Below are positions 6,051 to 43,324 of a stretch of 64,000 nt of DNA, piece by piece (within the stretch, counting starts at the first letter, position 1; each line of letters opens with the position of its first letter). The stretch covers positions 20,401 through 84,400 of IMG/VR virus record IMGVR_UViG_3300042691_015935; one strand, given 5' to 3'. The position numbers were made by a program, and so were the translations under genes. The DNA comes from a virus. The notes under the pieces were generated by a model, which ran no database searches, was not told the DNA's origin, and worked only from the letters and a program-made list of their open reading frames with translations.

Positions 6051-6315
6051 AATCCTTTGTTACTTGTATAATTTCAAACCTAACGTAATCTTTCATTTCA
6101 TTAGCGTAACTAATCTGTTTTTTGGCATAATCTTCTGTTATCTTACCATCATTTAAAGCTTTAGTAATGCCTTCAATTTTTGATTTCTTACTTTCTAACT
6201 GTAAGAATACTTTCTTAGAACCTTCGGGAATTTTAATATCTCTAAAGATTTCAACATAATCTGATTCACCTGCGTTCTTTGATTTCTTAATTTCTCCAAC
6301 TTTTCTTCTAGCCAT
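6049..6315 (-). CDS. Small basic protein of the replication operon, unknown
   Basis: 88 residues, lysine-rich N-terminus (MARRKVGEIKKSK), then a central helical region. It overlaps the upstream gene by 8 bp. Its position between an annealing-type protein and the primase-helicase suggests a DNA-replication role, perhaps DNA binding. No family recognised. Confidence 0.6.
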   Translation of the reverse strand: MARRKVGEIKKSKNAGESDYVEIFRDIKIPEGSKKVFLQLESKKSKIEGITKALNDGKITEDYAKKQISYANEMKDYVRFEIIQVTKD

Positions 6316-6739
6316 TGTTTTCTCCTTCGTTTATAATTTCCAGGTCTTTCTTTTCTTGTTCTGTTAGTTCGACATTAGGGTCTGCTGCTTTTTGTAATAA
6401 GTCTCTTGCTTCGTTATATGTCTGCATCATCATTAAGAACTTACATTCTAAAGCATAGTTACCTAGTTCTAATAACATTTTTTCTGTTTTATTTAACTTG
6501 TAGGCAGCGTCTGTTAAGTCTTTATCTACTAGAGCCTTAAGTAATCTTTTTGCTCCTCTTGACGATAAAAAATCAACACCTTGTCTGAATTTTGTTGAGT
6601 ATAATCCATAACCTAAACTAGCGGTAGCTAATGGGTCATTTGCTCTAGCTTCTGCTTCCTGTAAAAGCTTTTCTTCTTCTACTTTAACGTCTAACTGTTG
6701 CAATTGTTGCTCTTCTGTTACATTATTTTCTTCTGACAT
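6308..6739 (-). CDS. Hypothetical helical protein of the replication operon
   Basis: The start is taken at the ATG of MSEENN (6739) because AAGGA lies 7 nt upstream; an upstream TTG in frame lacks a ribosome site and would overlap the preceding stop. The 143-residue protein has an acidic N-terminus and long helices (KTEKMLLELGNYALECKF). Not recognised. Confidence 0.65.
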   Translation of the reverse strand: MSEENNVTEEQQLQQLDVKVEEEKLLQEAEARANDPLATASLGYGLYSTKFRQGVDFLSSRGAKRLLKALVDKDLTDAAYKLNKTEKMLLELGNYALECKFLMMMQTYNEARDLLQKAADPNVELTEQEKKDLEIINEGENNG

Positions 6740-6750
6740 ATAATTCCTTT

Positions 6751-7257
6751 TTATTGCCAACCATCATCATTTGTTTGTGTTTCTTTAGCTGGCGTAGCTG
6801 GTGGAGATTTACTTGGTTTAGAAAACCCAGAAGGTTTAGGTTGGGCTTCTTGTTGAGGAGGTTTACTAGCTTGTGTATCAGCTAGGGGTGAGTCTACGAT
6901 TCTTTCACCCTCATCCAAATCAGCTAAAGCAAATGCTGTTCCATAATTACAAAGAGCTAAACATCTACCAATTGAACCTGTTTCAGCTTTCTCTGTGTGA
7001 TCTGAAAAATCTTTCTTTGTTTCACGCTTTGTTGCTGAAACTTGTTTGATAATATTACCGTCTTTATCTTTGATTTTGATTGTACTTTTTGCTACAGTTT
7101 GATCTTCTGTTAATAGCAAGAACTCAGTACTGATTTCAAAATTATCTACTTCCTCGTTGAACCACACTAGACGATGTGCAACAAGCATGTAGCTTTTACC
7201 TTTAAGATTAACAAGAGGTAGGTCTGTCCCTTTCTTTGTTTTTACAATCTTACTCAT
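6751..7257 (-). CDS. Putative ssDNA-annealing or ssDNA-binding protein (Erf/Rad52-like)
   Basis: 168 residues. A core of about 120 residues contains the stretch EKAETGSIGRCLALCNYGT, typical of phage single-strand annealing proteins of the Erf/Sak group. It is followed by a Pro/Lys/Ser-rich linker and an acidic tail NDDGWQ, an organisation like SSB tails that recruit partners. It stands upstream of the primase-helicase, which ends in the similar DNDSGWD. A role in recombination or coating ssDNA at forks is likely; which of the two is uncertain. Confidence 0.55.
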   Translation of the reverse strand: MSKIVKTKKGTDLPLVNLKGKSYMLVAHRLVWFNEEVDNFEISTEFLLLTEDQTVAKSTIKIKDKDGNIIKQVSATKRETKKDFSDHTEKAETGSIGRCLALCNYGTAFALADLDEGERIVDSPLADTQASKPPQQEAQPKPSGFSKPSKSPPATPAKETQTNDDGWQ

Positions 7258-32408: not shown

Positions 32409-33884
32409 TTATGCAAATTTTAAAATACGGTTATTAATATAATCTAAAGATTGACTTGGGATACCTTCGATATAATTAGGAATCGTTTCAACTTTTCTAG
32501 GAGAAGATTCTAATTTAGAAGTAGCATTAACAATAGGTAAAATAAAGTTAATCCAATTTAACATATCATCAGTATCTACTGTGCCCTCATGAACTCTAAT
32601 CTCTAATGTTTTATGTCGAGCATAAGACATAGGATTGATAACTAAGTATCTGTCAGATCGTCTACCTCCTGATGTCATGTTTGCTTTGTATTGATAGTCT
32701 TCAATGTTCGGTGACTCAGTTGGTCTACAATAAGTGTTTGATCTTCTTTGTTCTGGTTGTGACTCAACTAAAAACTTTTGAAGCTTAACTAGATTATGAA
32801 ATGCAATTGCTACATCTCTCTTTCTCATATCAAAATGAACATGCAATCCACAACTATTATTTACTGAACACTGTGCTTCTTGTAATGCAACACCTAATCT
32901 ATTTAGGATTTCGATACGATTGTTTTCTGGAACTAATACTCTGATTTCGTGAGTGAAAGGGTATCCATCTGAAGTTCTAAGTGAACCATCTGATGTAACA
33001 TTAGTCCATTTCTGTAACTTGTTTTTAATTAACACCTCTTTTAATTTACCAACGTCAGACTTAGAAATTAATTCAATCTCAATACCAATGAATGAATCGT
33101 TGTTGTATGGTTTCTTTTCATCATTGATTAGATTCTTTTGAATGTGTTCATACATTTTTAAATACTGTCCATTAGTTTGAGCAACACCATTGTACAATTC
33201 AATAGCACCAAACCTAGTTTCTTTCTTTGTCGGACTAGACTTAACTGCTAATCTTTGTTCACGAAGTTTTTTATTAAGAGCTTGATGTGCTTTTAATTTA
33301 ATAGCCTTCAAATCTTTCTTAACGATAGTCACACCATTCTGAACTACTTCAACAGTAGGCATTGGAATTTCTACTTCCAATAGTTTCTTCCCTACTGTAC
33401 GTGATGCTCTAACTTTAAGTTCTTGATTCATTAACTTACTTAGCTTCTCACGATTCTCTTTAATCTTTTTAGATAAAGTATTTTCTTTATCAGTTTTACC
33501 TTTAACACCTAGTCGTTGTTGTTCCTTATCAAGAGCTTCTAACTTCTTAGTTTCTTTTAGTAAAGTGAAGAACATTGTGTTCTTATTTTCTTTAACACTA
33601 AATACTTTAATCTTTAAGTCTTTAGGAAATATAACTTTCTTGTATCTTTCAAATACTAAGTTATCTTTCAACACAATGAACTCTGTTCCTTCTTTAATTA
33701 ATATCTTTTTACTATCTAACGTAAATGAAATATCTTCGTTCAATATACAACGAACATATTTATTGTTCTTATCAAACTCACCAATGTATTCAATCTCTTT
33801 TCCAACAAAATAAGGTCCGAGTTTATTCTCTTTGTCCTTATTAATTTTGTAGATAGCACCTAACTCAAATACTTTTGTTTCCAT
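32409..33884 (-). CDS. Amidoligase (glutamine-synthetase/GCS-fold, amidoligase_2 family)
   Basis: 491 residues from ATG 33884 (GGAGG upstream). The N-terminal 80 residues look SH3-like (LGAIYKINKD, VGKEIEYIGEF), a Lys-rich coiled region follows, and the C-terminal 230 residues are the ligase: FIGIEIELIS (metal-binding Glu), NNSCGLHVHFDMR and KTLEIRVHEGTVD. The family makes amide bonds with ATP. Next to a glutamine amidotransferase and ATP-grasp ligase it forms a predicted peptide-modification system. Substrate unknown. Confidence 0.85.
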   Translation of the reverse strand: METKVFELGAIYKINKDKENKLGPYFVGKEIEYIGEFDKNNKYVRCILNEDISFTLDSKKILIKEGTEFIVLKDNLVFERYKKVIFPKDLKIKVFSVKENKNTMFFTLLKETKKLEALDKEQQRLGVKGKTDKENTLSKKIKENREKLSKLMNQELKVRASRTVGKKLLEVEIPMPTVEVVQNGVTIVKKDLKAIKLKAHQALNKKLREQRLAVKSSPTKKETRFGAIELYNGVAQTNGQYLKMYEHIQKNLINDEKKPYNNDSFIGIEIELISKSDVGKLKEVLIKNKLQKWTNVTSDGSLRTSDGYPFTHEIRVLVPENNRIEILNRLGVALQEAQCSVNNSCGLHVHFDMRKRDVAIAFHNLVKLQKFLVESQPEQRRSNTYCRPTESPNIEDYQYKANMTSGGRRSDRYLVINPMSYARHKTLEIRVHEGTVDTDDMLNWINFILPIVNATSKLESSPRKVETIPNYIEGIPSQSLDYINNRILKFA

Positions 33885-33885
33885 A

Positions 33886-34089
33886 TTACTTACCTCCAAT
33901 ATTTAATGAAACATCTTCATGTTCCATTAGTTTAGTTTTAATATCTTCGTTCTTTGATTCATAAACTCTGTGTAATCTTGACTGCCAATCAATTGCTTCT
34001 TCTAATGTTAATCGCTTCGGACATCTATCATAAACTTTCCACCCTTTATTGTTTAGATTGTAACTAATATAGTACTTAGTGTTATCCAT
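33886..34089 (-). CDS. Hypothetical protein, 67 residues
   Basis: Starts MDNTKYYISYNLNNKGWKVYD; a beta hairpin then helix (LTLEEAIDWQSRLHRVYESK). Directly upstream of the amidoligase gene with 1 bp between. Could be a partner; unknown. Confidence 0.52.
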   Translation of the reverse strand: MDNTKYYISYNLNNKGWKVYDRCPKRLTLEEAIDWQSRLHRVYESKNEDIKTKLMEHEDVSLNIGGK

Positions 34090-34097
34090 GTTGCCTC

Positions 34098-34283
34098 CTA
34101 ATATTTAATAACTTCTACTATTTCATCATCTATACAATATAAATTAGTATCAAAGTTAATAATATCTACCTTGGTACTATTACCGTTAGGTGATATCCAT
34201 TTAATAATAGCTAGTCTAGTGATGTGAATACCTCTGAAATATCCTTTTACTTTAATAACTGAACCTTCTTTATATAGTTTCAT
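34098..34283 (-). CDS. SH3-like small protein (KEGSVIKV)
   Basis: 61 residues beginning MKLYKEGSVIKVKGYF, a KxGS variant of the family signature. All-beta. 4-bp overlap upstream. Confidence 0.57.
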   Translation of the reverse strand: MKLYKEGSVIKVKGYFRGIHITRLAIIKWISPNGNSTKVDIINFDTNLYCIDDEIVEVIKY

Positions 34284-34474
34284 GATACCTCCTCTACGTC
34301 TTCATATGTCAACCATATTTCTTGCTTACCAATAACAAGAACCTTAACCCAAGAAACTTCACGTCCAGTAAACGTAACGTGTTTTACAACACCTAAACGA
34401 TTAATAAAATCTTTAGGGTTTAGTTTAGTGTAAGTTTCTGGAATCTTAAGAATCTTCACTACTTTGTTTTTCAT
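34280..34474 (-). CDS. SH3-like small protein
   Basis: 64 residues; beta-rich, ends EIWLTYEDVEEVS. Same size and place as the other family members but with a diverged start (MKNKVVKILKIPETY). 4-bp overlaps on both sides. Confidence 0.52.
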   Translation of the reverse strand: MKNKVVKILKIPETYTKLNPKDFINRLGVVKHVTFTGREVSWVKVLVIGKQEIWLTYEDVEEVS

Positions 34475-34719
34475 TCTTTCCTCCTATATACGTTTATTTT
34501 GTTATGTAGATACCATTGATAATCTTGGTTTAAATAATCCATTAATTTTTGTTTATAACCATGACTACCTGTGTTTAAATTATAACTATTATAATACGTG
34601 TTATTGTAACAACATTCAATCAATGTAGACTCAGGTCGTTTAGTAATTAAAAATCCTTTATTTTGTAATGCTAACATGTGACAATAATTATAACATTGTA
34701 TATCAGTTAATTCCCACAT
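34471..34719 (-). CDS. Hypothetical Tyr/Asn-rich protein, 82 residues
   Basis: Rich in Tyr, Asn and Cys (ECCYNNTYYNSYNLNTGSHG). Helical ends. Not recognised. Confidence 0.5.
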   Translation of the reverse strand: MWELTDIQCYNYCHMLALQNKGFLITKRPESTLIECCYNNTYYNSYNLNTGSHGYKQKLMDYLNQDYQWYLHNKINVYRRKE

Positions 34720-34943
34720 ACAGCTTCTCCTATTTTTTTAAGCTTTATAATGAAAAATGAATGTTCAGTGAACGTGAACCACTGACGGATACCTAACATC
34801 TCTACCTTGTAAAATCTATTTGATCCATATACATAACATTTTATTACAATAATTATATCGTAATCTTGATCTATTAAAACATCACCTTCGTAATACTTAA
34901 AACCTTTAATCTTCGTAAAGTAAAACTTCTTCAAGAGAAACAT
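34707..34943 (-). CDS. SH3-like small protein, start uncertain
   Basis: From ATG 34943 it has 78 residues with FKYYEGDVLIDQDYDIIIVIK, a YEGD version of the signature, and ends KKIGEAVCGN. The start region overlaps the upstream gene and has no good ribosome site, so translation may be coupled. Confidence 0.5.
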   Translation of the reverse strand: MFLLKKFYFTKIKGFKYYEGDVLIDQDYDIIIVIKCYVYGSNRFYKVEMLGIRQWFTFTEHSFFIIKLKKIGEAVCGN

Positions 34944-35118
34944 CTTCCAAGCTAGATAAGTTAGCATATAGTTGACGTAACTTTTTAATCTTATCACGTT
35001 CATGTTTACCTCTGTTTGATAAAATAGACTGAGCTTGTTGATGTGTTAAGTTTGGTTTATACAAATTGTATTTAATTAATAATCGTTTTTGCTTTGTCGT
35101 TAAAAGTTTTTCACGCAT
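34906..35118 (-). CDS. Hypothetical helical basic protein, 70 residues
   Basis: ATG 35118 has TTGGAGGT upstream. Helical, with LTHQQAQSILSNRGKHERDK resembling a small helix-turn-helix or nucleic-acid-binding unit, and an acidic end. Not assigned. Confidence 0.5.
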   Translation of the reverse strand: MREKLLTTKQKRLLIKYNLYKPNLTHQQAQSILSNRGKHERDKIKKLRQLYANLSSLEDVSLEEVLLYED

Positions 35119-35143
35119 TGTCACCTCCAAAATAGAAACAAAA

Positions 35144-35260
35144 CTAACATCTACTCACCAACGCATCACCTATATAGTACCCAAACATAAATACTTTATA
35201 GATAAAATAAACAGTTAGTAATCCTAATAATAAACTTAATCCTTTTAATATGTTAACCAT
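35144..35260 (-). CDS. Single-span membrane microprotein, 38 residues
   Basis: GGAGGTAATAG before the ATG; hydrophobic helix LLLGLLTVYFIYKVFMF. Starts 8 bp inside the end of the upstream gene. Confidence 0.5.
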   Translation of the reverse strand: MVNILKGLSLLLGLLTVYFIYKVFMFGYYIGDALVSRC

Positions 35261-35435
35261 CTATTACCTCCAATGGTATCATGAATAAAATAGTATCATA
35301 CAATGAAACCTGTTCATAAGTTCTAATTTTAGATTCAGTGACTGATTGAAAGTAACCATATACACCATATTTGTCTCGTCTATTAAATTTACAATACATA
35401 CCATCATATCCCTTATGTATAACTAAGTAGTACAT
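35253..35435 (-). CDS. MYYxVI paralogue 1 (60 residues)
   Basis: MYYLVIHKGYDGMYCKF start and ILFMIPLEV end; aligns with the next two proteins. A 29-bp DNA repeat (35264-35292 versus 35437-35465, one mismatch) shows the tandem duplication. Beta-rich, unknown role. Confidence 0.55.
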   Translation of the reverse strand: MYYLVIHKGYDGMYCKFNRRDKYGVYGYFQSVTESKIRTYEQVSLYDTILFMIPLEVIDG

Positions 35436-35626
35436 GTTACCTCCATTGGTATCATGAATAAAATATTTTCTTTAAAACTGAATTGACATAAATCTCCTAA
35501 TGGTATATTATTCACTGTTGCTTTAACAGTGACAGGTCGGAAGTACCCACTTAAAGTATAATTATTTTCACCAATTACTTTACAGTACATAGCTTCACAT
35601 GTATCATGTATAATTAAATAGTACAT
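35423..35626 (-). CDS. MYYxVI paralogue 2 (67 residues)
   Basis: MYYLIIHDTCEAMYCKV start, ILFMIPMEVTCTT end. Shares both ends with paralogue 1 while the middle has diverged. GGTAAC-type site upstream. Overlaps paralogue 1 by 13 bp. Confidence 0.55.
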   Translation of the reverse strand: MYYLIIHDTCEAMYCKVIGENNYTLSGYFRPVTVKATVNNIPLGDLCQFSFKENILFMIPMEVTCTT

Positions 35627-35817
35627 ACAACCTTCATTGGTATGACATAACTAATAAATTGTTTTCGTATAAATGAAATACCTATTAGGTGTTCATTTAA
35701 ATAACAACCGACACTATACATACCAGAATATTTATCATGTGTAACTACGAGGTCTTTACAAAAACTATAGCCTATACTATCATCATTAGAACTTCGCCAT
35801 ATCACTATGTAATACAT
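35614..35817 (-). CDS. MYYxVI paralogue 3 (67 residues)
   Basis: Start at ATG 35817 with AGAGGAG upstream. MYYIVIWRSSNDD start and YVIPMKVVCTI end. Most diverged of the three. Confidence 0.54.
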   Translation of the reverse strand: MYYIVIWRSSNDDSIGYSFCKDLVVTHDKYSGMYSVGCYLNEHLIGISFIRKQFISYVIPMKVVCTI

Positions 35818-35980
35818 CTTTACTCTCCTCTGATAAAGGGAATTCAATCAAAGCTATATACCTAACACCTATCTCTTTTAACTTAATAGATGTGTCAGTG
35901 AACTCCTTTAAATATGAGTCGTTGTTCACAATGTATGGATATACTATCTTTGTTTTATCTGGACGTTGTTCTAAAATCAT
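35786..35980 (-). CDS. Hypothetical protein, 64 residues
   Basis: TAGGAGAG before ATG 35980. Mixed alpha/beta (YIALIEFPLSEESKDVL). Overlaps the next gene by 32 bp in another frame. Confidence 0.5.
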   Translation of the reverse strand: MILEQRPDKTKIVYPYIVNNDSYLKEFTDTSIKLKEIGVRYIALIEFPLSEESKDVLHSDMAKF

Positions 35981-36182
35981 TTATCTCTCCTATTATAGAA
36001 TAGTATTCAATATTTTTTATTCTGTAATCAACCCAAGAGTAACATTTAGAACCATCTAATCCAAAAAAATAACCTCTAACAAACCAATCATTGATACATG
36101 AGTCCTCAAATGTTGTATTAAATGGAATAAATATATATGAAACAAACCAATGATCACTGTTCATAAAATAAACTGTTTTCAT
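35955..36182 (-). CDS. Hypothetical aromatic small protein
   Basis: ATG 36182 chosen; the codon three before is a TTG without site. 75 residues, MKTVYFMNSDHWFVSYIF start and an aromatic middle (CYSWVDYRIKNIEYYS) similar in style to the MYYxVI group. Weak ribosome site. Confidence 0.48.
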   Translation of the reverse strand: MKTVYFMNSDHWFVSYIFIPFNTTFEDSCINDWFVRGYFFGLDGSKCYSWVDYRIKNIEYYSIIGEINDFRTTSR

Positions 36183-36183
36183 A

Positions 36184-36372
36184 TTAACCAACGTTTGTTA
36201 TTTCAATTAAGTCTCCATCTACTTCAAGTAATAACTTATCTTTCTGCCAATCACGTTCACTTATAGTGTACTGATATGAGTCCCATAATTCTTGTTTTAA
36301 TTCTGTAACATTACAAATAAATTCAAATGGTTTCTCAAGCATTTCAGTTACAATAACAATTTTCTTTTTCAT
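36184..36372 (-). CDS. Hypothetical protein, 62 residues
   Basis: Starts MKKKIVIVTEMLEKPFEF; ends in an acidic beta strand (LLLEVDGDLIEITNVG). AAGGAG before its ATG. Not recognised. Confidence 0.52.
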   Translation of the reverse strand: MKKKIVIVTEMLEKPFEFICNVTELKQELWDSYQYTISERDWQKDKLLLEVDGDLIEITNVG

Positions 36373-36385
36373 TTAAAACTCCTTA

Positions 36386-36568
36386 TTACCAAAGGTTTCC
36401 ATATCTACCTTGTTTAATGTTACGTTGAATCTCGTATTCACTTACTATATTCTTAAGTCTTTCTACTTCTTTTTGTAGTTTAACTATTTCTTTTCTCAAT
36501 TGAATTACTTCATCATTACAGTTACATTCGGTATAATGTAATCCACATTCATTACAAAAACCACTCAT
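36386..36568 (-). CDS. Zinc-knuckle plus leucine-zipper protein, 60 residues
   Basis: Start at ATG 36568 (CGGAGATG). CNECGLHYTECNC at the N-terminus is a likely zinc site; heptads (IVKLQKEVERLKNIVSEY) make a dimerising coiled coil. Ends in GNLW. A small DNA- or protein-binding regulator is possible. Confidence 0.55.
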   Translation of the reverse strand: MSGFCNECGLHYTECNCNDEVIQLRKEIVKLQKEVERLKNIVSEYEIQRNIKQGRYGNLW

Positions 36569-36923
36569 CTTCATCTCCGTAATTAGGGTTAATAATCTTT
36601 TGTATCTCGCTTAATTTAACTGTTTGGTAATTGAGCTTATTCCTAGCATCTTCTAAGTATAATATCAAACTACTTATTAAACCATTGTATGAGTTCTCAA
36701 TGGTGCTTCCACAACCTGAATGAATATAATTACCTTTGCTATCATAAACTCTAACGAAAAAAGGATTATACACATCACACGAGTGATCATAACCTTGATT
36801 AAATAATAGTTCTTCATACACCCCATTGTGTTTCATATATCTAACTTTATAAGAGTTAATTCTCTTATTCTTTTCTTTATTTTTTCTTAGTTCTTTTAGA
36901 ATATTTTCATCATTAATCCTCAT
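36552..36923 (-). CDS. Hypothetical protein, 123 residues
   Basis: Basic helical start, central beta domain (YKVRYMKHNGVYEELLF), C-terminal helix and an acidic aromatic tail DEDEWFL, similar in character to the tails of the replication proteins. Upstream neighbour is the DNA ligase. Confidence 0.52.
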   Translation of the reverse strand: MRINDENILKELRKNKEKNKRINSYKVRYMKHNGVYEELLFNQGYDHSCDVYNPFFVRVYDSKGNYIHSGCGSTIENSYNGLISSLILYLEDARNKLNYQTVKLSEIQKIINPNYGDEDEWFL

Positions 36924-36931
36924 CTAATCTC

Positions 36932-37807
36932 CTATAAATCATTAACATTTCTGAACCCTTTATAAACAGGAAACCTAGGCTTCTCCTTCATACCAGAAGG
37001 TTGAAATGTATAAGTTATTATTTGGTTAATGCAACCACTTCGTTGTTCCCATATTAGTTTACGTTGCTCATCATTAAACCCTGTACCAATATCAAACACC
37101 ACATCAGTATTAATATCCTTAACTGTTATCGAACCTAGCGTGTTGGCAGGAATTAAATTCTCTTTATGTGAGCTACGTTTAGTGTTACCTAACTCATCTA
37201 TCGTTGCTTCATTGTTATTAATCATCTTCTCATTGAATGATATGATCGTTGCCTCACTATCTTCAAAGCGTTTAATCTTTAATAGATACTGTTCTTTAAC
37301 TGTTGATCTACCACATTTATATGGAGAGTTAATTGATCTAACCATTACACCTTCATATCCTGCTGATATCCATACTTCTTCTGTTACATTTAAGTCATTA
37401 ATATTTTTAACCATCATTGGTTCGAGAGACACGACATTCTTAATACCTAACTCCTTAACTTTACTAATATATTGTTCAACACGTTGTTGATATGGTGTGT
37501 TGATTGAATCCTTAACCCAATCAAATACAAAGTAAGCGAACTCTGGTTCACCATCTTCACTCATAACAAGTGATTGTGTTTCATTGAATGTTTTATTAGG
37601 ACATATAATCTCACCATCAAATCCGTCTGGTAGCTGTGATAATTTTTGTTGAATATATTTATTTGGAATCTCAATAAACTTACGAGACAAAGCTCTACCA
37701 TTAATTATTAAACAACGAATACCATCTAGCTTAGGTGTAGCCAATACAGGAAACTGTAAGTTATTAATATCACCTACGTTACAAGCGAGCATTGGTTTAG
37801 TTATCAT
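36932..37807 (-). CDS. ATP-dependent DNA ligase
   Basis: 291 residues. Motif I ATPKLDGIR (nucleophile Lys near 26), DGEI, FAYFVFDW, EGVMVR and LLKIKRF (motif V), then an OB domain. Size and pattern match T7-type minimal ligases. It seals nicks during phage DNA replication. 1-bp overlap with the upstream zinc-binding gene. Confidence 0.92.
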   Translation of the reverse strand: MITKPMLACNVGDINNLQFPVLATPKLDGIRCLIINGRALSRKFIEIPNKYIQQKLSQLPDGFDGEIICPNKTFNETQSLVMSEDGEPEFAYFVFDWVKDSINTPYQQRVEQYISKVKELGIKNVVSLEPMMVKNINDLNVTEEVWISAGYEGVMVRSINSPYKCGRSTVKEQYLLKIKRFEDSEATIISFNEKMINNNEATIDELGNTKRSSHKENLIPANTLGSITVKDINTDVVFDIGTGFNDEQRKLIWEQRSGCINQIITYTFQPSGMKEKPRFPVYKGFRNVNDL

Positions 37808-38109
37808 TAGTCTCTCCTTCTAGTGTGTCCTTGAACAGCACGGACAAGTCCATTTGATTTAGCCATACTTGAATTAACCTTGAGATTATTACCCAAGTTA
37901 GAACCCTTGTTCCTTAGCTTAGTTGCATTGATAATGTATTGTGTTAGTCTAGGGTCAGAGTTAATCTGTATATCACACCCTGTCTTATGATCGTAGATCA
38001 TGTTACCAGTGTAACAATCTACATCACTAGCACAGTCCGAACACTCGTCAATCTTACCCTTCTTATTCTTACTAACTTCAATCTCACCATCACAATGACG
38101 ACAATACAT
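37807..38109 (-). CDS. Zinc-ribbon protein
   Basis: 100 residues. CRHCDGE ... CSDCASDVDC in the first 32 residues makes a zinc ribbon; the C-terminal half is basic (KLRNKGSNLGNNLKV, GHTRRRD). A nucleic-acid-binding role next to DNA ligase is likely; no exact family. Confidence 0.6.
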   Translation of the reverse strand: MYCRHCDGEIEVSKNKKGKIDECSDCASDVDCYTGNMIYDHKTGCDIQINSDPRLTQYIINATKLRNKGSNLGNNLKVNSSMAKSNGLVRAVQGHTRRRD

Positions 38110-38118
38110 ATTACCTCC

Positions 38119-38280
38119 TTAGTTAAATAAGGAAAGAATATCCTTAATGATTTGTTGCTTAACATCTCTATCTTTTTTCTTACTAACCTTTAATCTTCTA
38201 TCATATAATTTAAGAGCTTCAATAATAACACTAGCTTCAACTGTACCCTTAACAATCTCTTTTCTTTTTGTTTGTTGCAT
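38119..38280 (-). CDS. Small basic helical protein, 53 residues
   Basis: ATG 38280 is preferred (AAAGGA 6 nt upstream) over ATG 38286. Sequence MQQTKRKEIVKGTVEASVII ... then basic helix (RRLKVSKKKDRD). Unknown. Confidence 0.55.
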   Translation of the reverse strand: MQQTKRKEIVKGTVEASVIIEALKLYDRRLKVSKKKDRDVKQQIIKDILSLFN

Positions 38281-38297
38281 ACTCATTCCTTTGTTTA

Positions 38298-38474
38298 TTA
38301 AAGTTTAAATAACTTCTCTCTCCAATATTCATTTATATAATTAATACAACATCTTAAATCTTGTTTATACATTCCATGTACTGAAAATATTCCTTTTCTT
38401 TTTATAGATATATTAATCCCTTGATAATAAGTTTGATATATACCATTAACACATTGCCACTTTAATGTAATCAT
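38298..38474 (-). CDS. Hypothetical small protein, 58 residues
   Basis: Strong AAGGAG site. MITLKWQCVNGIYQTYYQG start, aromatic and beta-rich like its neighbours, ending in a helix. Unknown. Confidence 0.52.
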   Translation of the reverse strand: MITLKWQCVNGIYQTYYQGINISIKRKGIFSVHGMYKQDLRCCINYINEYWREKLFKL

Positions 38475-38482
38475 ATAACTCC

Positions 38483-38566
38483 TTAGAATGTTGATGCTGA
38501 TAGTTGTATTAAGCTGATGAATCCGTGAAGAAAAAGAAACCAGAATACAATGTATATTTGTGTCAT
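38483..38566 (-). CDS. Membrane microprotein, 27 residues
   Basis: TAGGAGAG site before the ATG; almost all hydrophobic (IYIVFWFLFLHGFISLI). Overlaps the upstream gene by 4 bp (ATGA), supporting real translation. Confidence 0.48.
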   Translation of the reverse strand: MTQIYIVFWFLFLHGFISLIQLSASTF

Positions 38567-38775
38567 GTTATCTCTCCTAGTTTACAGTGTATATAAGAAT
38601 CAAATGTATTTTTATATCTTGTCCAATTACAAAAACCCACTAAGTTTACATAGCTATATACAAATTTTATAGGTGTTTCATCTTGTATAACAATAATGGT
38701 TGCTTTAAATACAGGATCCCAATCTTCTTCACCCATATTAGTTAGTAAAATATCACCCACTTTATACTTATTCAT
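38563..38775 (-). CDS. SH3-like KxGD small protein
   Basis: 70 residues, MNKYKVGDILLTNMGEEDW start and KLGEIT end. Clear KxGD member. 8-bp overlap with the upstream gene. Confidence 0.58.
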   Translation of the reverse strand: MNKYKVGDILLTNMGEEDWDPVFKATIIVIQDETPIKFVYSYVNLVGFCNWTRYKNTFDSYIHCKLGEIT

Positions 38776-38965
38776 ATGTAACTCCTACCTTCATAATAAC
38801 ATACGAACCGAAATTATTTATACTTTTCATTTGTATATTATCTTTCTTAGCTATATATTTATATGTTACAATATTATCTCTTATATTAGTTATTACTATA
38901 AGAGACATTTCATAACTACAATCTACCTTTGTTCCCATTAAATATAACTCACCTACCTCATACAT
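38768..38965 (-). CDS. SH3-like small protein (YEVGELY)
   Basis: 65 residues, MYEVGELYLMGTKVD start; beta-rich. Tandem with the KxGD protein downstream. Confidence 0.55.
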   Translation of the reverse strand: MYEVGELYLMGTKVDCSYEMSLIVITNIRDNIVTYKYIAKKDNIQMKSINNFGSYVIMKVGVTYE

Positions 38966-39078
38966 AACATAACCTTATGTTTCAATAACTTCAAGCGTAG
39001 AGACACATCTATGTTATGTTCTTTTAATAACTTAAGCAACATAAGCTCTGAGCGTAGTGCTTTAATATAAGTTTCCAT
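38953..39078 (-). CDS. Helical microprotein, 41 residues
   Basis: AGGAGG site 6 nt before the ATG. Leucine-rich basic helix (LMLLKLLKEHNIDVSLRLKL). Its end overlaps the next gene by 13 bp. Confidence 0.52.
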   Translation of the reverse strand: METYIKALRSELMLLKLLKEHNIDVSLRLKLLKHKVMLCMR

Positions 39079-39079
39079 A

Positions 39080-39394
39080 TTACACCTCCTGTTTACAGTC
39101 GGGACATACCCATATCATGAAGTTAGTTAACACTTTGTTATGATATTTTCTTGGGTGTGTACAGGTTGTTTGTTGTACTTGAGGGACGGACGTTGGTTCT
39201 TTAAACAGTTCATATAACTTATCAATTGTTTCAAGAAAAAATAAAAATTTTTCACCTACTTGTTTTGTTTTACTATTGTAGTGAATTCTCTGAACTTTAT
39301 ATATATTATTAACTTCTATAATTTCATAGATTGAATTATATAATTTGTTTTTATGAATAATTATATCCCCAACTTTAAACTTTGGCGTTGTCAT
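39080..39394 (-). CDS. SH3-like KxGD protein with C-terminal zinc ribbon
   Basis: 104 residues: MTTPKFKVGDIIIHKNK SH3-like part, then a Pro/Gln linker and CTHPRKYH ... WVCPDCKQEV, a one-ribbon zinc site. It is the longest cytoplasmic member of the family and lies just downstream of the type II hammerhead ribozyme, whose 3' product starts its mRNA. Confidence 0.62.
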   Translation of the reverse strand: MTTPKFKVGDIIIHKNKLYNSIYEIIEVNNIYKVQRIHYNSKTKQVGEKFLFFLETIDKLYELFKEPTSVPQVQQTTCTHPRKYHNKVLTNFMIWVCPDCKQEV

Positions 39395-39407
39395 TCAATC
39401 CTCCTAT

Positions 39408-39470
39408 GGACTCGTCAGGTTACACATAATGTAACGACGACCGACTAATTCTAGTCAGGTCGTTTCGTCC
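39408..39470 (-). ncRNA. Hammerhead ribozyme, type II (HHR-C)
   Basis: All core elements on the minus strand: GAAA (39466-39463), stem III 39462-39458 and 39456-39452 with 39438-39442 and 39443-39447 (one bulge), cleavage triplet GTC ending at 39436, stem I GTTACA/TGTAAC (39435-39430 with 39424-39419), CTGACGA (39418-39412) and stem II GTCC/GGAC (39411-39408 with 39470-39467), left open. Cleavage falls between 39436 and 39435. The next gene's AGGAGG starts 3 nt after stem II. Confidence 0.85.
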
Positions 39471-39545
39471 TTAATTATATTTAGATACCACTAGATGTAC
39501 TAAAGGTAAACAAATAAACACTACCCCTAATAATAAATCCTCCAC
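39471..39545 (-). CDS. Possible membrane microprotein, 24 residues
   Basis: GTG start with AGGA 5 nt upstream, hydrophobic (LLLGVVFICLPLVHLVV), stop directly abutting HHR-C. Too short for certainty. Confidence 0.35.
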   Translation of the reverse strand: MEDLLLGVVFICLPLVHLVVSKYN

Positions 39546-39547
39546 TA

Positions 39548-39871
39548 TTATCCTACCTTCTTATCCATATCTTGTGGATTAAATGCTTTGATTTCTTTTC
39601 TTGATAACTTATCATTGTTATCTTGAACGAATTGTTGGATTGTTGCTAGGTTCTCAATAAACTTTTCAAATTGTTGAACATACATATTGATTGGAAACCT
39701 ACCACCTAACCCATAGATAGTTAATCCACCACCTTTGTTAATCTCAACCCTTACAGTGTTACCCACTAGGTTGTTAAGAATCTTTAATTGTTCTTGTTGC
39801 TTCTTTAACTGCTCGATAAGAGCTTGTTTTTCTTCAAGTAATTGTTTCGCTGTTTTTGTTGCAGTTGTCAT
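39548..39871 (-). CDS. Coiled-coil protein, 107 residues
   Basis: N-terminal coiled coil (LLEEKQALIEQLKKQQEQLKI within 10-32), then a beta segment NTVRVEINKGGGLTIYGLGG and a helical end. AAAGGAG before the ATG. It is the gene between HHR-B and HHR-C, so its mRNA would be excised with 5'-OH and cyclic phosphate ends. Not recognised. Confidence 0.58.
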   Translation of the reverse strand: MTTATKTAKQLLEEKQALIEQLKKQQEQLKILNNLVGNTVRVEINKGGGLTIYGLGGRFPINMYVQQFEKFIENLATIQQFVQDNNDKLSRKEIKAFNPQDMDKKVG

Positions 39872-39913
39872 AATAGTTCTCCTTTGTAGCGTAATGCTAC
39901 GTTGTTAATTAGT

Positions 39914-39973
39914 TAAGCTGTTTCGGTGTGACATTACACCTCGTCAGTCAGACTTATAGCCTGAGACAGCTTA
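39914..39973 (-). ncRNA. Hammerhead ribozyme, type III (HHR-B)
   Basis: Minus strand: stem III TAAGCTGT/ACAGCTTA, 8 bp (39973-39966 with 39921-39914); cleavage after C39965 (GTC); stem I TCAGGC/GTCTGA (39964-39959 with 39953-39948); CTGACGA (39947-39941); stem II GGTGT/ACACC (39940-39936 with 39929-39925); GAAA (39924-39921). Every invariant core position is present. It lies in the leader of the gene at 39871. Confidence 0.9.
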
Positions 39974-40254
39974 GGGAATAGTGTTTGCGATCACTACTCC
40001 CACTACTGTATGTTATCAGCTCGACGTTATCCTCCCATAGGTACATTAATCCTATGGTTCTTATATCGAACCGACTAGCTAGACTCTTCACTGTTTTACA
40101 GCTTATACCATATAGGTAGTCTAGATGCAAAGACGTTGCTTCTCGGTAATGTAGTTCTCGCTACAAAACTCCACAACACCCAACGGGTTATGTCTAATAA
40201 CAGTTACTAGCCGTCTAGCCAAGTGTTAAGGTACACCTGCCCTTTTCTAGTAAC
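39974..40254 (-). ncRNA. Hairpin-rich non-coding RNA between two hammerheads
   Basis: No gene fits this 281-nt stretch, but it contains at least eight inverted repeats: 40203-40210/40247-40254 (8 bp), 40178-40181/40185-40188, 40150-40154/40161-40165, 40127-40130/40136-40139, 40079-40085/40118-40124, 40035-40041/40051-40057 (7 bp), 40056-40060/40068-40072 and 39974-39983/39992-40001. The last abuts stem III of HHR-B. It would be the 3' part of the RNA released by HHR-A and HHR-B. Function unknown. Confidence 0.6.
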
Positions 40255-40266
40255 CTATAGTTTATA

Positions 40267-40551
40267 CTAGATAAAACTTATGCCATTTTCTACCTTTACA
40301 AGGTTAACGCTTTGCTTCGTTAAGAGCTTTTTTAAGCGTTTAATTTCAGACATAAGTCTATCTTTAGAGGATTTTCCTTTGACAAAAAATCCACGTTGAA
40401 ACAAGTTTATATCGTTCGGGCAGTTGGTTATAACATACCCCGAATGAAACACTTTTTTAGTTGCGTTTACAGCTTGACGCTTCAACGCTTGTTGTTTATA
40501 ACCTGTATTAGCTCTTTTACAAGCCAACGCAGTTTTACTTAATGTTCTCAT
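40267..40551 (-). CDS. Basic protein, 94 residues
   Basis: Strongly basic (MRTLSKTALACKRANTGYK, KKLLTKQSVNLVK) with a central YVITNCPNDIN segment. The AGGAG ribosome site (40567-40563) lies inside stem III of HHR-A and would be freed by cleavage. Likely RNA- or DNA-binding by charge; not recognised. Confidence 0.58.
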   Translation of the reverse strand: MRTLSKTALACKRANTGYKQQALKRQAVNATKKVFHSGYVITNCPNDINLFQRGFFVKGKSSKDRLMSEIKRLKKLLTKQSVNLVKVENGISFI

Positions 40552-40562
40552 AAGACGTTATA

Positions 40563-40623
40563 CTCCTATTTCGGGTGACAACACCCATCATCAGTAGGGA
40601 CTCAATTATCCCTAGATAGGGAG
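40563..40623 (-). ncRNA. Hammerhead ribozyme, type III (HHR-A)
   Basis: Minus strand: stem III CCTAT/ATAGG (40620-40616 with 40569-40565); cleavage after C40615; stem I TAGGGA/TCCCTA (40614-40609 with 40600-40595); CTGATGA (40594-40588); stem II GGGTG/CACCC with TTGT loop (40586-40582 with 40577-40573); GAAA (40572-40569). The next gene's ribosome site is part of stem III. A separate GCGAGT/ACTCGC hairpin (40623-40628/40634-40639) lies just upstream. Confidence 0.88.
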
Positions 40624-40685
40624 CGAGTGGTTAACTCGCCCAAAGATTCATGGCTAGGATAAATACTAGAGAGAGTTTTATAATA

Positions 40686-40868
40686 TTAACTAGCATGGTT
40701 ATACTCATTCATTTTAGCATAAGCTTCACTTAGAGTCTTGAATGTTATTTCTTCTTTTTCAGACTCATGATTCTTGAAGTAATGTAATATATATACATTA
40801 AGTTCTTGATTATATACTAGTTTACATAAGAAGCCACTAATAGGGTTACTTAACATTTTGATAATCAT
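40686..40868 (-). CDS. First leftward gene, 60-residue protein
   Basis: TAGGAGAATCAC before the ATG. Beta then helical (FKTLSEAYAKMNEYNHAS). It is the first gene of the leftward arm, upstream of HHR-A, so it may be expressed very early. Not recognised. Confidence 0.55.
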   Translation of the reverse strand: MIIKMLSNPISGFLCKLVYNQELNVYILHYFKNHESEKEEITFKTLSEAYAKMNEYNHAS

Positions 40869-41572
40869 GTGATTCTCCTAGTTTAAGTATATATTTAATT
40901 ATATATACAAGAATTTAATTTTAATCTCGACTTGTCAGGTCGATGCCGAGCTATCATTCAAGCCCCATGCCAACTCATTTTCTGAACAAAATCAAGCACT
41001 TAGCTGTGGTTCACAATGACACCAGTATCGAAAAGTCACCAAAAACAGAGCCAAAATGCCACCAAAGCCAGTATCAAAACAACACCATCTCAACAAATTC
41101 AAGCACTTAGAGCTAAGTACCTGAAATCTCGTAGCATGGTATAATAAGAACCCGTGCGTGTGTATTAATACCCGTATGCGTGTGCATATGCCCCTGCGTG
41201 TGTTTTTATATACCTGCGTGAGCGTACGTGCGAGCGTGTGCGTGCATGGGTGTGCAGGTGCGTGTAGGCGTGAGCGTGTGTGTGCATGATGCGTAGGCGT
41301 GTGTGCGAGCGTGTGCGTGCGTATGTGTGCTAGGGGGGGGGTACACCCTTCGTGGTTCAGGGTGACATTGACCGAGTACATTCACTCACTTTACCCTCTC
41401 AACTATAGAAACCAGTAACCCTTCACCCTACTACTCATTCACAACCTTTATAACAACTCTTAGTATAATAGCCTCTAAAACGAACAAAAACAGGGTTATT
41501 TGATACTTTAGTATATAGACCTAATAGTTAGTATTAAAGCTTCTAAAACCTCTTTAAAAGGATATTAAGCTT
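40869..41572. other. Divergent non-coding region, candidate origin/control region
   Basis: About 700 bp separate the leftward and rightward arms. Contents: an AT-rich segment (40880-40925) where leftward promoters are likely; repeated words at 40985-41120 (TCAAGCACTTAG twice, CCAGTATC twice, ACTTAGAGCTAAGT palindrome); a GT/GC alternating tract to 41341; and an AT-rich segment with TATAAT at 41464-41469 facing the rightward genes. The only ORF (40992-41381) is low-complexity and not credible. Confidence 0.6.
41153..41341. repeat. GT/GC alternating purine-pyrimidine tract ending in G9
   Basis: About 190 bp of irregular GTGCGTGTG-type repeats in an otherwise AT-rich genome, with G confined to the plus strand and C to the minus, ending in nine Gs (41333-41341). 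Alternating purine-pyrimidine favours Z-DNA; strand asymmetry favours R-loop or unwinding structures. Likely part of an origin or replication/transcription switch. Confidence 0.8.
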
Positions 41573-42157
41573 ATGTTTAGTATATTTGATTTAAGTAATC
41601 TAGACAATGTTCCATTACAGGGTATAATAGCTCTTATAAACGATTCTGATAAGAAGGTATACCTAACACAGGGTTCTAACATTCCAGTGCTTCTAGGCAA
41701 GATTATAAGCGAAATAAAGCAGGGTATTCATACTCACCAAGAATTATGTGATGATTATAAGAAATTAAAAGCTATGGTTATAGAAACACAAACCGACATT
41801 ACACATAGGTACTTACACATGTCTTACTGGTATGATTACTTTGAAGCTAATGGATATAAGCTATATACTAAAAAGAATCATTTGAGTTATAAGGTTAGTA
41901 AAGGTTTAGTACATGTAGGAAGAAGTAGTACAAAGCTAGTCGTTGAAGTTTATTTAGTAAATAGTAGATGTGAAAAGACAGTAGTAGGAGTATTCGAAAC
42001 AATACAACAAGCTGATGAGTTTATAGAAACTTACTACACACAGGACAATAAATATAAGCTACCAATACTAGCTAACAACAAGTTGACTATGGCACACTAT
42101 CTATCAAAAACGAGTCGAAGGAGCGAAGCGACTGACGCAGTTACTATGGATAGGTAG
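41573..42157 (+). CDS. First rightward gene, 194-residue protein
   Basis: The chain starts MFSIFDLSNLDNVPLQGI, has a central mixed domain (YLHMSYWYDYFEANGYK, LSYKVSKGLVHVG) and a basic polar end. AAAGGAT lies 11 nt before the ATG. Being next to the origin-like tract it could be a replication or regulatory protein. Not recognised. Confidence 0.6.
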   Translation: MFSIFDLSNLDNVPLQGIIALINDSDKKVYLTQGSNIPVLLGKIISEIKQGIHTHQELCDDYKKLKAMVIETQTDITHRYLHMSYWYDYFEANGYKLYTKKNHLSYKVSKGLVHVGRSSTKLVVEVYLVNSRCEKTVVGVFETIQQADEFIETYYTQDNKYKLPILANNKLTMAHYLSKTSRRSEATDAVTMDR

Positions 42158-42247
42158 ATAGTTAGTAATTAAAAACTAAACACCAACCAAGTTGTTATTT
42201 AGGTACATATTTACTTATATTATATTATTATATGTATAGGTAATATT

Positions 42248-42303
42248 TTGACCCACCTACTGGTTCTGGATTGACCCACCTCTGGGTCTAGTTTGACCCA
42301 CCT
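42248..42303 (+). promoter_or_regulatory. Three direct repeats TTGACCCACCT
   Basis: Exact 11-bp repeats at 42248-42258, 42271-42281 and 42293-42303, spaced 23 and 22 bp, about two helical turns, so a protein could bind the same face of the DNA. They lie upstream of the rightward promoter at 42330-42358 and are candidates for an activator or repressor array. Confidence 0.8.
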
Positions 42304-42329
42304 AAAGTGAATGTTTTTGAAAAAAGTTC

Positions 42330-42358
42330 TTGACAAAAATATAAAAGTGTGGTATTGT
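42330..42358 (+). promoter_or_regulatory. Rightward sigma70-type promoter
   Basis: AGTTC extension, TTGACA (42330-42335), 17-bp spacer, TATTGT (42353-42358). Predicted start about 42365 within AAACAACTAT, so that motif would begin the transcript. Upstream iterons suggest regulation. It leads into 42420 and the genes beyond. Confidence 0.82.
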
Positions 42359-42419
42359 AGAAACAACTATTAGCAACAAACTATGCCTAGAAATAAGGGT
42401 AGTTTCTATAAGGAGATTT

Positions 42420-42848
42420 ATGAGTCCAGAAGTTAAAACAGTTTTAATTAGTTTAGTAACATTATTAGTTTATAGATCAATTGAACAAATGGTTAACAGT
42501 TATTTGTTTAGAAAACAGATGAACGGGTTTACAGCTAGGTTAGCTGAACAAAGCGGATTAAGCAATTACGTTGGTGGAGATGTTAACTTATCTGTTAAAG
42601 AAAGAGCTATTAAACGTATCAATGCTTTAGGTACGGATAATAGTGGTATTGTTTTAAATAAGGATAAAGCTTATCTAGGAAAGAACACAGAACATGGACC
42701 AGTTTATGAGGACGTAGATGTTGCTTTCTTTGAAGGAGTTGAATTACCCTTAAGTCATGAAGAACATGAGGAAGTAGCCAAAGCTTTTAATAATCAAGCA
42801 TTTAGAGAAAGAAAAGAACAAGAAAAACAAACCCTGACAAGGCTGTAG
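42420..42848 (+). CDS. Membrane-anchored hypothetical protein, 142 residues
   Basis: N-terminal hydrophobic helix (TVLISLVTLLVYRSIEQM), then a polar chain with VGGDVNLSVKERAIKRINALG and an acidic, helical end. AAGGAG before its ATG. Not recognised. Confidence 0.58.
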   Translation: MSPEVKTVLISLVTLLVYRSIEQMVNSYLFRKQMNGFTARLAEQSGLSNYVGGDVNLSVKERAIKRINALGTDNSGIVLNKDKAYLGKNTEHGPVYEDVDVAFFEGVELPLSHEEHEEVAKAFNNQAFRERKEQEKQTLTRL

Positions 42849-42849
42849 T

Positions 42850-42996
42850 ATGTTGTTTGTTATATTCGTATATGCAATAATAACAGCTAGTTTGGAACGT
42901 TCACAGATTCAAACTAACGCCGTAAATAACGAAGAGTTAATCAGGAGACAACATGAAGAGCAAAGACTTAGAATCCTCAACAGAGACAGGTACTAG
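42850..42996 (+). CDS. Small membrane protein with polar coil, 48 residues
   Basis: Starts one base after the previous stop. Hydrophobic N-terminus (MLFVIFVYAIITASL) followed by a charged helical tail (EELIRRQHEEQRLRILNRD), an i-spanin-like layout. Overlaps the next gene by 44 bp in another frame. Confidence 0.45.
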   Translation: MLFVIFVYAIITASLERSQIQTNAVNNEELIRRQHEEQRLRILNRDRY

Positions 42997-43324
42997 TATT
43001 TCTGGGACGGTATATAAATCACTAACCGAAGTGTGTATTAATTTACTTGGAACAGAACTAACTGTGAAAAAGATATCACTAGATTTAGATTATGATTCGT
43101 TTTGTACATTTTTAAGAGATGATCAAACTATAAATGGAAGCCCATTTCTTTACTTGCGTGAAGGGTCATCAACAAACAAGATAAGGCTAAATTATTACAA
43201 CCTTTATGGTGTATGTGAAGTCATTATACAATGTGATGTAGATTCTGAAAAAAAGAGAATTAAAGAAGAGATGACTAGACTATCTGAACAATTGAAAAAA
43301 CTAGATAAGGACTTTAATGATTAA
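42953..43324 (+). CDS. Hypothetical protein, 123 residues
   Basis: Ser/Thr-rich start, a central beta domain with Cys residues, and a C-terminal coiled coil (EEMTRLSEQLKKLDKDF). AGGAGAC before its ATG. Not recognised. Confidence 0.55.
   Translation: MKSKDLESSTETGTSISGTVYKSLTEVCINLLGTELTVKKISLDLDYDSFCTFLRDDQTINGSPFLYLREGSSTNKIRLNYYNLYGVCEVIIQCDVDSEKKRIKEEMTRLSEQLKKLDKDFND

Follow-up and report, generated by a model that had tools for sequence, protein, structure and literature searches.

The 64-kb stretch of DNA analysed here (the window) is part of an IMG/VR viral record of 84.4 kb and carries phage genes, such as those for a DNA ligase and an endolysin. Within 1.2 kb of one strand, a descriptor scan finds three hammerhead motifs: HHR-A (type III, 40563-40623), HHR-B (type III, 39914-39974, predicted to cleave between 39965 and 39964) and HHR-C (type II, 39408-39470, predicted to cleave between 39436 and 39435). 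All lie on the minus strand, as do the features around them. HHR-A comes first in the series and directly precedes ORF-A (40267-40551, 94 codons), followed by a structured noncoding stretch (39976-40266), HHR-B and ORF-B (39548-39871, 107 amino acids). The set of three hammerheads is kept in a second phage, L002, known from an 84.9-kb record.

Read directly, the minus strand from 40623 to 40563 is CTCCCTATC^TAGGGATAATTGAGTCCCTA-CTGATGA-T-GGGTGTTGTCACCC-GAAATAGGAG, after which 11 nucleotides lead to the ATG at 40551. The 5' strand of stem III (CTCCCTAT, 40623-40616) is followed by C17 (40615), with cleavage predicted between 40615 and 40614. Stem I pairs TAGGGAT (40614-40608) with GTCCCTA (40601-40595), the core CTGATGA occupies 40594-40588, an extra U (40587) stands between A9 and stem II, and stem II (GGGTG, 40586-40582, with CACCC, 40577-40573), GAAA (40572-40569) and the 3' strand of stem III (ATAGGAG, 40569-40563) complete the motif. 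HHR-A carries C3-U4-G5-A6-N7-G8-A9, G12-A13-A14, the A15.1-U16.1 pair and H17 in the correct order and opens at stem III, and by its sequence it is a genuine type III hammerhead with a predicted ability to cleave. The AGGAG at 40567-40563, which serves ORF-A as its SD, lies in stem III, and its partner strand at 40616-40623 lies upstream of the predicted cut and is held by about five base pairs, just as the original prediction had described. In L002 the AGGAG is kept in stem III. The stem has five contiguous pairs, A15.1-U16.1 included, which take in AGG alone of the AGGAG; the whole motif is paired only when one C is bulged (seven pairs), an arrangement that agrees with the positions originally assigned to the stem. 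For the motif alone, the five- and seven-pair forms have nearly equal computed energies (-20.4 and -20.7).

Because Rfam at its gathering score gave no hammerhead in the window, we used a hammerhead descriptor written for the purpose, which covers all three circular permutations and permits one insertion; without the insertion it misses HHR-A because of the extra U. Rfam at E<=1 also gave no hammerhead across positions 33000-43000, and even at E<=10 the matches listed where HHR-A lies included none to a hammerhead family. The descriptor score makes HHR-A on its own only moderately significant, as its value of 15 was equalled by 2 hits in 60 random 64-kb windows when a one-nucleotide insertion was allowed. 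What we take to be the decisive evidence comes from L002, which keeps the core, the extra U, stem I, stem III, the AGGAG and the 11-nucleotide spacing, and in which stem II has changed in a compensatory manner from GGGTG/CACCC to GAGTC/GACTC. The L002 copy matches the Rfam family RF00008 at 25.7 bits (E = 0.008; gathering score, 48.5), and HHR-B of L002 reaches 46.7 bits (E = 8.9e-9), also below the gathering score. Across about 38 nucleotides covering stems I and III and loop I, HHR-A does not differ between the two phages, whereas HHR-B and HHR-C diverge, with nearly every stem rewritten in L002 and the folding retained (the HHR-C counterpart, for example, lies at L002 positions 7069-7128). 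Being invariant between the sole two copies, HHR-A stems I and III give no covariation, and compensatory support among its helices comes from stem II. A further search for relatives of ORF-A or ORF-B returned L002 only, annotated phages held no DNA related to the window, and of 42 stretches found by a pattern search for HHR-A-like sites, the sole hammerhead was L017, which is the L002 contig.

The surroundings of HHR-A are conserved as well. Directly 5' of stem III lies a hairpin, P0 (40622-40640), that folds at about -10 kcal/mol in the window and in L002, its sequence rewritten yet its pairing kept. It holds the stop codon (40633-40631) of a tiny membrane-like open reading frame of 21 amino acids (40631-40696), read by eye as MLVNIIKLSLVFILAMNLWAS in the window and, at equal length, MLANIIKISLAIILLSNLIGS in L002, where the stop lies within the corresponding hairpin. 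This frame ends 7 nucleotides before stem III, and because it ends inside the upstream hairpin in both phages, a ribosome that stops there would extend as far as stem III. Another tiny hydrophobic frame (24 amino acids, about 39545-39471), which has an L002 counterpart, ends right before HHR-C. A second hairpin stands directly 5' of HHR-B (39974-40001), with a folding energy of -14.3 kcal/mol in the window and -17.3 kcal/mol, from a different sequence, in L002. The SD associated with HHR-B lies outside the ribozyme, about 29 nucleotides downstream, and that of HHR-C (AGGAGG) lies just outside it on the 3' side. ORF-A is 73% identical to its L002 homologue over the full length without gaps, and it has no PHROG or phage-record match and no significant Pfam match; ORF-B, by reading, has a homologous 104-amino-acid frame in L002. 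The noncoding stretch of about 290 nucleotides between ORF-A and HHR-B is strongly folded (z = -3.5, compared with -5.0 for L002 positions 6286-6578), and a two-sequence consensus fold contains 18 pairs in which both sides have changed. No Rfam family was found for this stretch, and a reading of it as a group I intron was dropped, given the lack of an Rfam match and helices unlike those of such an intron. Cleavage by HHR-B would set the 3' end of this structured RNA. Farther upstream, repeats resembling CACACGC and CACGCA (about 41170-41385) lie near the point from which gene directions diverge, where the sign of the GC skew also flips.

The original prediction went on to propose that cleavage of HHR-A exposes the ribosome site of ORF-A. 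Nearest-neighbor calculations do not bear out strong masking that cleavage would relieve: when stems I and II are kept paired, 0.3 kcal/mol is needed to open the AGGAG in the intact window RNA and 3.1 kcal/mol in the cleaved product (0.7 and 1.3 kcal/mol in L002), and in unconstrained ensembles the corresponding values are 3.5 and 3.7 in the window and 1.7 and 1.2 in L002, all computed without tertiary contacts, which would favor the intact fold. By the same nearest-neighbor measure, free of tertiary contacts, the intact ribozyme does not make the SD distinctly more costly to open than the product does, and because, with stems I and II in place, opening costs less in the intact form, no unmasking is predicted for HHR-A. 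Departure of the upstream fragment fared better. Only weak binding is predicted for the cut 5' fragment (-3.1 kcal/mol in the window and -2.3 in L002, or -4.1 and -7.4 when the upstream sequence is extended), so it is plausible that the anti-SD strand leaves after the cut. The AGGAG is also unusually far from its start codon, at 11 nucleotides: its aligned spacing of 10 is the maximum among the 31 window genes with an SD (range, 1 to 10, most between 3 and 8) and occurs once. We recognized no ligand-binding part or aptamer in HHR-A, and nothing points to regulated cleavage. Of the proposed one-way translation switch, then, the geometry and its conservation are borne out; its strength and regulation are not.

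The same arrangement was sought in other phages with two scans. A biased pattern (CTGATGAG..CGAAA-N1-3-AGGAG) found 12 contigs with a type III hammerhead match, compared with 0 for a control in which CTCCT replaced AGGAG; for type I, the counts were 12 and 9. We rejected this excess as proof of selected masking: its p value is 0.07 without close relatives, and an excess is expected anyway because a gene behind the ribozyme needs an SD there. A less biased scan accepted an SD anywhere within 30 nucleotides of a type III hammerhead. Among the matches listed, which include at least 23 distinct phage type III hammerheads, the SD lies 3 to 11 nucleotides beyond stem III in 20 of 23 and touches or overlaps the stem in 3 of 23, making overlap a minority arrangement among the phage type III hammerheads listed. 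Full or near-full burial of the SD, in stems of 8 to 11 base pairs, was found in eight cases (L052, L062, L064, L071, L073, L077, L078 and L214, of which L052, L073, L077 and L078 are close relatives). In each of the eight, the SD is harder to open before cleavage, with costs of 5.5 to 9.0 kcal/mol in the intact form versus 0.2 to 1.8 kcal/mol in the product, and seven of them head hammerhead arrays. The mechanism of the original prediction fits these eight better than it fits HHR-A, with strand release as the problem, the cut strand being predicted to hold tightly (-8 to -16 kcal/mol). A different layout is seen in L049, L053, L061, L080 and others, where AGGAG lies within the closed stem III of a type I hammerhead and the gene is preceded by an A+T-rich leader that lacks an SD.

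Arrays show a consistent order. The hammerhead that overlaps an SD comes first in 11 of the 11 arrays that hold at least one other hammerhead, a call made in L078, L081 and L258 with less than 150 nucleotides of upstream sequence. In all the arrays found to combine types III and II, type III stands ahead of type II; the patterns by which the array loci were chosen included an SD. L191 and L235, two arrays made up mostly of type I, start without a type III. Scanning genome contigs gave one array (L258) and two matches without a hammerhead. Upstream hairpins set the type III class apart: a hairpin ends within 4 nucleotides upstream of 28 of 47 distinct phage type III hammerheads (60%), compared with 42 of 141 control offsets (30%; Fisher p = 0.0004, uncorrected for kinship), and types I and II have no such excess. 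The type III-first order and the hairpins before type III copies together suggest that hairpin-ended products have been selected for. A type II ribozyme would supply its own 3' hairpin in the form of its closed stem III; a type III ribozyme would need an added hairpin or would have to stand in a leader whose upstream piece is dispensable. Type III-first order fits with type II ribozymes leaving both products hairpin-capped. Long arrays occur in metagenomic phages (L081, L073, L077, L078, L052 and L258), in which the first hammerhead is a type III with the SD inside and the rest are type II, and also in Streptomyces phages (L136 to L140; NC_054667, NC_054671, NC_054661, NC_054657 and NC_054665). 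The arrays in these phages reach 12 hammerheads in about 10 kb, often with one before each gene.

We favor, with a probability of about 0.6, a reading in which the hammerheads constitutively punctuate phage mRNA into hairpin-ended pieces, with exposure of the ribosome site secondary in this virus. Computational comparison of the two phages establishes the ribozyme fold, its conservation, the overlap with the SD and the flanking hairpins, and from these we infer cleavage in the cell, protection of mRNA by the hairpins and any effect on translation. HHR-A would cut the leftward transcript just before ORF-A as part of the A, B, C series. Upstream RNA would end in a hairpin at each site, formed by P0 or its equivalent plus a short tail at HHR-A and HHR-B and by the closed stem III at the type II HHR-C, and downstream mRNA would carry a 5'-OH and open with the hairpin of stem I. 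ORF-A begins immediately after HHR-A, and for that reason its SD and the 3' strand of stem III have bases in common; an intact HHR-A and a bound ribosome would thus be mutually exclusive, and the cut would remove the partner strand. Since only about five base pairs hold the SD, HHR-A probably acts in ordinary, constitutive processing and affects translation modestly, rather than serving as a strong switch. In favor of punctuation are the compensatory changes in HHR-A stem II, in P0 and in the stems of HHR-B and HHR-C, the Rfam matches of the L002 copies, the hairpins before type III hammerheads, the order of types in mixed III/II arrays and the usual position of phage type III hammerheads, 3 to 11 nucleotides ahead of an SD that they leave uncovered. 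The extra U in the core, the odd SD spacing, the invariance of stems I and III, the choice of array loci by SD-containing patterns and the order of the L191 and L235 arrays count against punctuation.

That intact HHR-A instead blocks the ribosome site of ORF-A until cleavage irreversibly starts translation seems unlikely to us. The conserved position of the AGGAG in stem III, the weak binding of the cut strand, the strong masking by the same layout in the eight buried-SD hammerheads and the operation of engineered anti-RBS hammerhead switches, as outlined in PMC8496063, all speak for such a switch, but at HHR-A itself opening is cheaper in the intact form, AGG alone falls within the contiguous stem, no ligand-binding part or regulated cleavage is apparent, and the SD lies outside stem III in most of the type III hammerheads among the matches listed. 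Across phages, we would venture, as a doubtful but slightly broader proposal, that in several lineages a type III ribozyme uses the SD of an array's first gene as one of its strands, which would restrict translation to messages that have cut themselves, a natural counterpart of the anti-RBS switch of which HHR-A would be a weak member. Translational coupling is quite improbable: a ribosome ending the 21-amino-acid frame would open P0 and cover the 5' strand of stem III, delaying cleavage or freeing the AGGAG uncut, as the placement of the stop codon in both phages and the conserved length and hydrophobic pattern of the frame would allow, but only two sequences bear on it, and the similar frame before HHR-C stands where no SD is covered. 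We give similarly little credence to HHR-A as an inactive remnant whose invariant CCCTA/TAGGG repeats serve as a DNA-level operator or other site. The identity of stems I and III and loop I where HHR-B and HHR-C diverge, the extra U and the inverted repeat TAGGGA..TCCCTA are what such a remnant would explain; against it, stem II is compensated, the core is intact, and the extra U is also present in phage hammerheads that are standard in other respects.

Constitutive punctuation has precedents. Phage and prophage hammerheads flank genes, and clusters of them have been reported to cut in vitro for three arrays and in E. coli for one, from A. tumefaciens (PMC3088659). Those clusters, including the A. 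tumefaciens ardA triple array (Perreault et al. 2011, PMC3088659), likewise mix types on one strand with each hammerhead beside a gene, and cutting of long phage RNAs into shorter messages was proposed for them, as here; relative to the clusters as presented in that source, the window differs in that its first hammerhead shares a stem III strand with an SD and in having a hairpin immediately 5' of each type III copy. HHphage, from haloviruses HF1 and HF2, is a hammerhead variant 13 nucleotides before a phage start codon (helicase), much like HHR-A, and a 5' end was reported near its cleavage site (PMC3088659). It differs in its core insertion near C3 and its high-salt host, and the portion of PMC3088659 that treats it does not describe an overlap with an SD. 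In engineered anti-RBS aptazymes (Ogawa and Maeda 2007, as reviewed in PMC8496063), an anti-RBS strand 5' of the cut is paired to the RBS and is lost once the RNA is cleaved, the geometry seen in HHR-A. Those constructs, as that review presents them, are synthetic and ligand controlled, whereas HHR-A has no recognizable aptamer and a much weaker mask. We found no description in the open-license literature of a natural hammerhead in which a stem III strand is the SD. The overlap of ribozyme and ribosome site looks like a recurring phage design, with a lock in this virus that would be too weak for a strong switch. The role of phage and prophage hammerheads has been called an open question (PMC6155905), and the conserved overlap, with strongly masked examples elsewhere, makes one proposed role directly testable. 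Array type order and the hairpins before type III copies yield a second, independent prediction, namely, hairpin-capped mRNA ends.

HHR-A shares its core, three stems and type III opening with RF00008 (Hammerhead_3) and differs from that family in the extra U after A9. A one-nucleotide insertion at this point is needed by 21 of the 230 distinct hammerheads that we collected, and in every one of the 21 that nucleotide is U. Because the same insertion, always U, recurs among phage hammerheads, the extra U is probably a tolerated variant and no argument for a dead HHR-A. PMC6155905 cites a hammerhead from a viroid whose core also has one additional nucleotide, which may lie at a different position from that in HHR-A. 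HHR-A and its L002 counterpart account for 2 of the 21 cases, many others are type II hammerheads in Streptomyces phages, and the set includes copies in L136, L137, L154 and L242.
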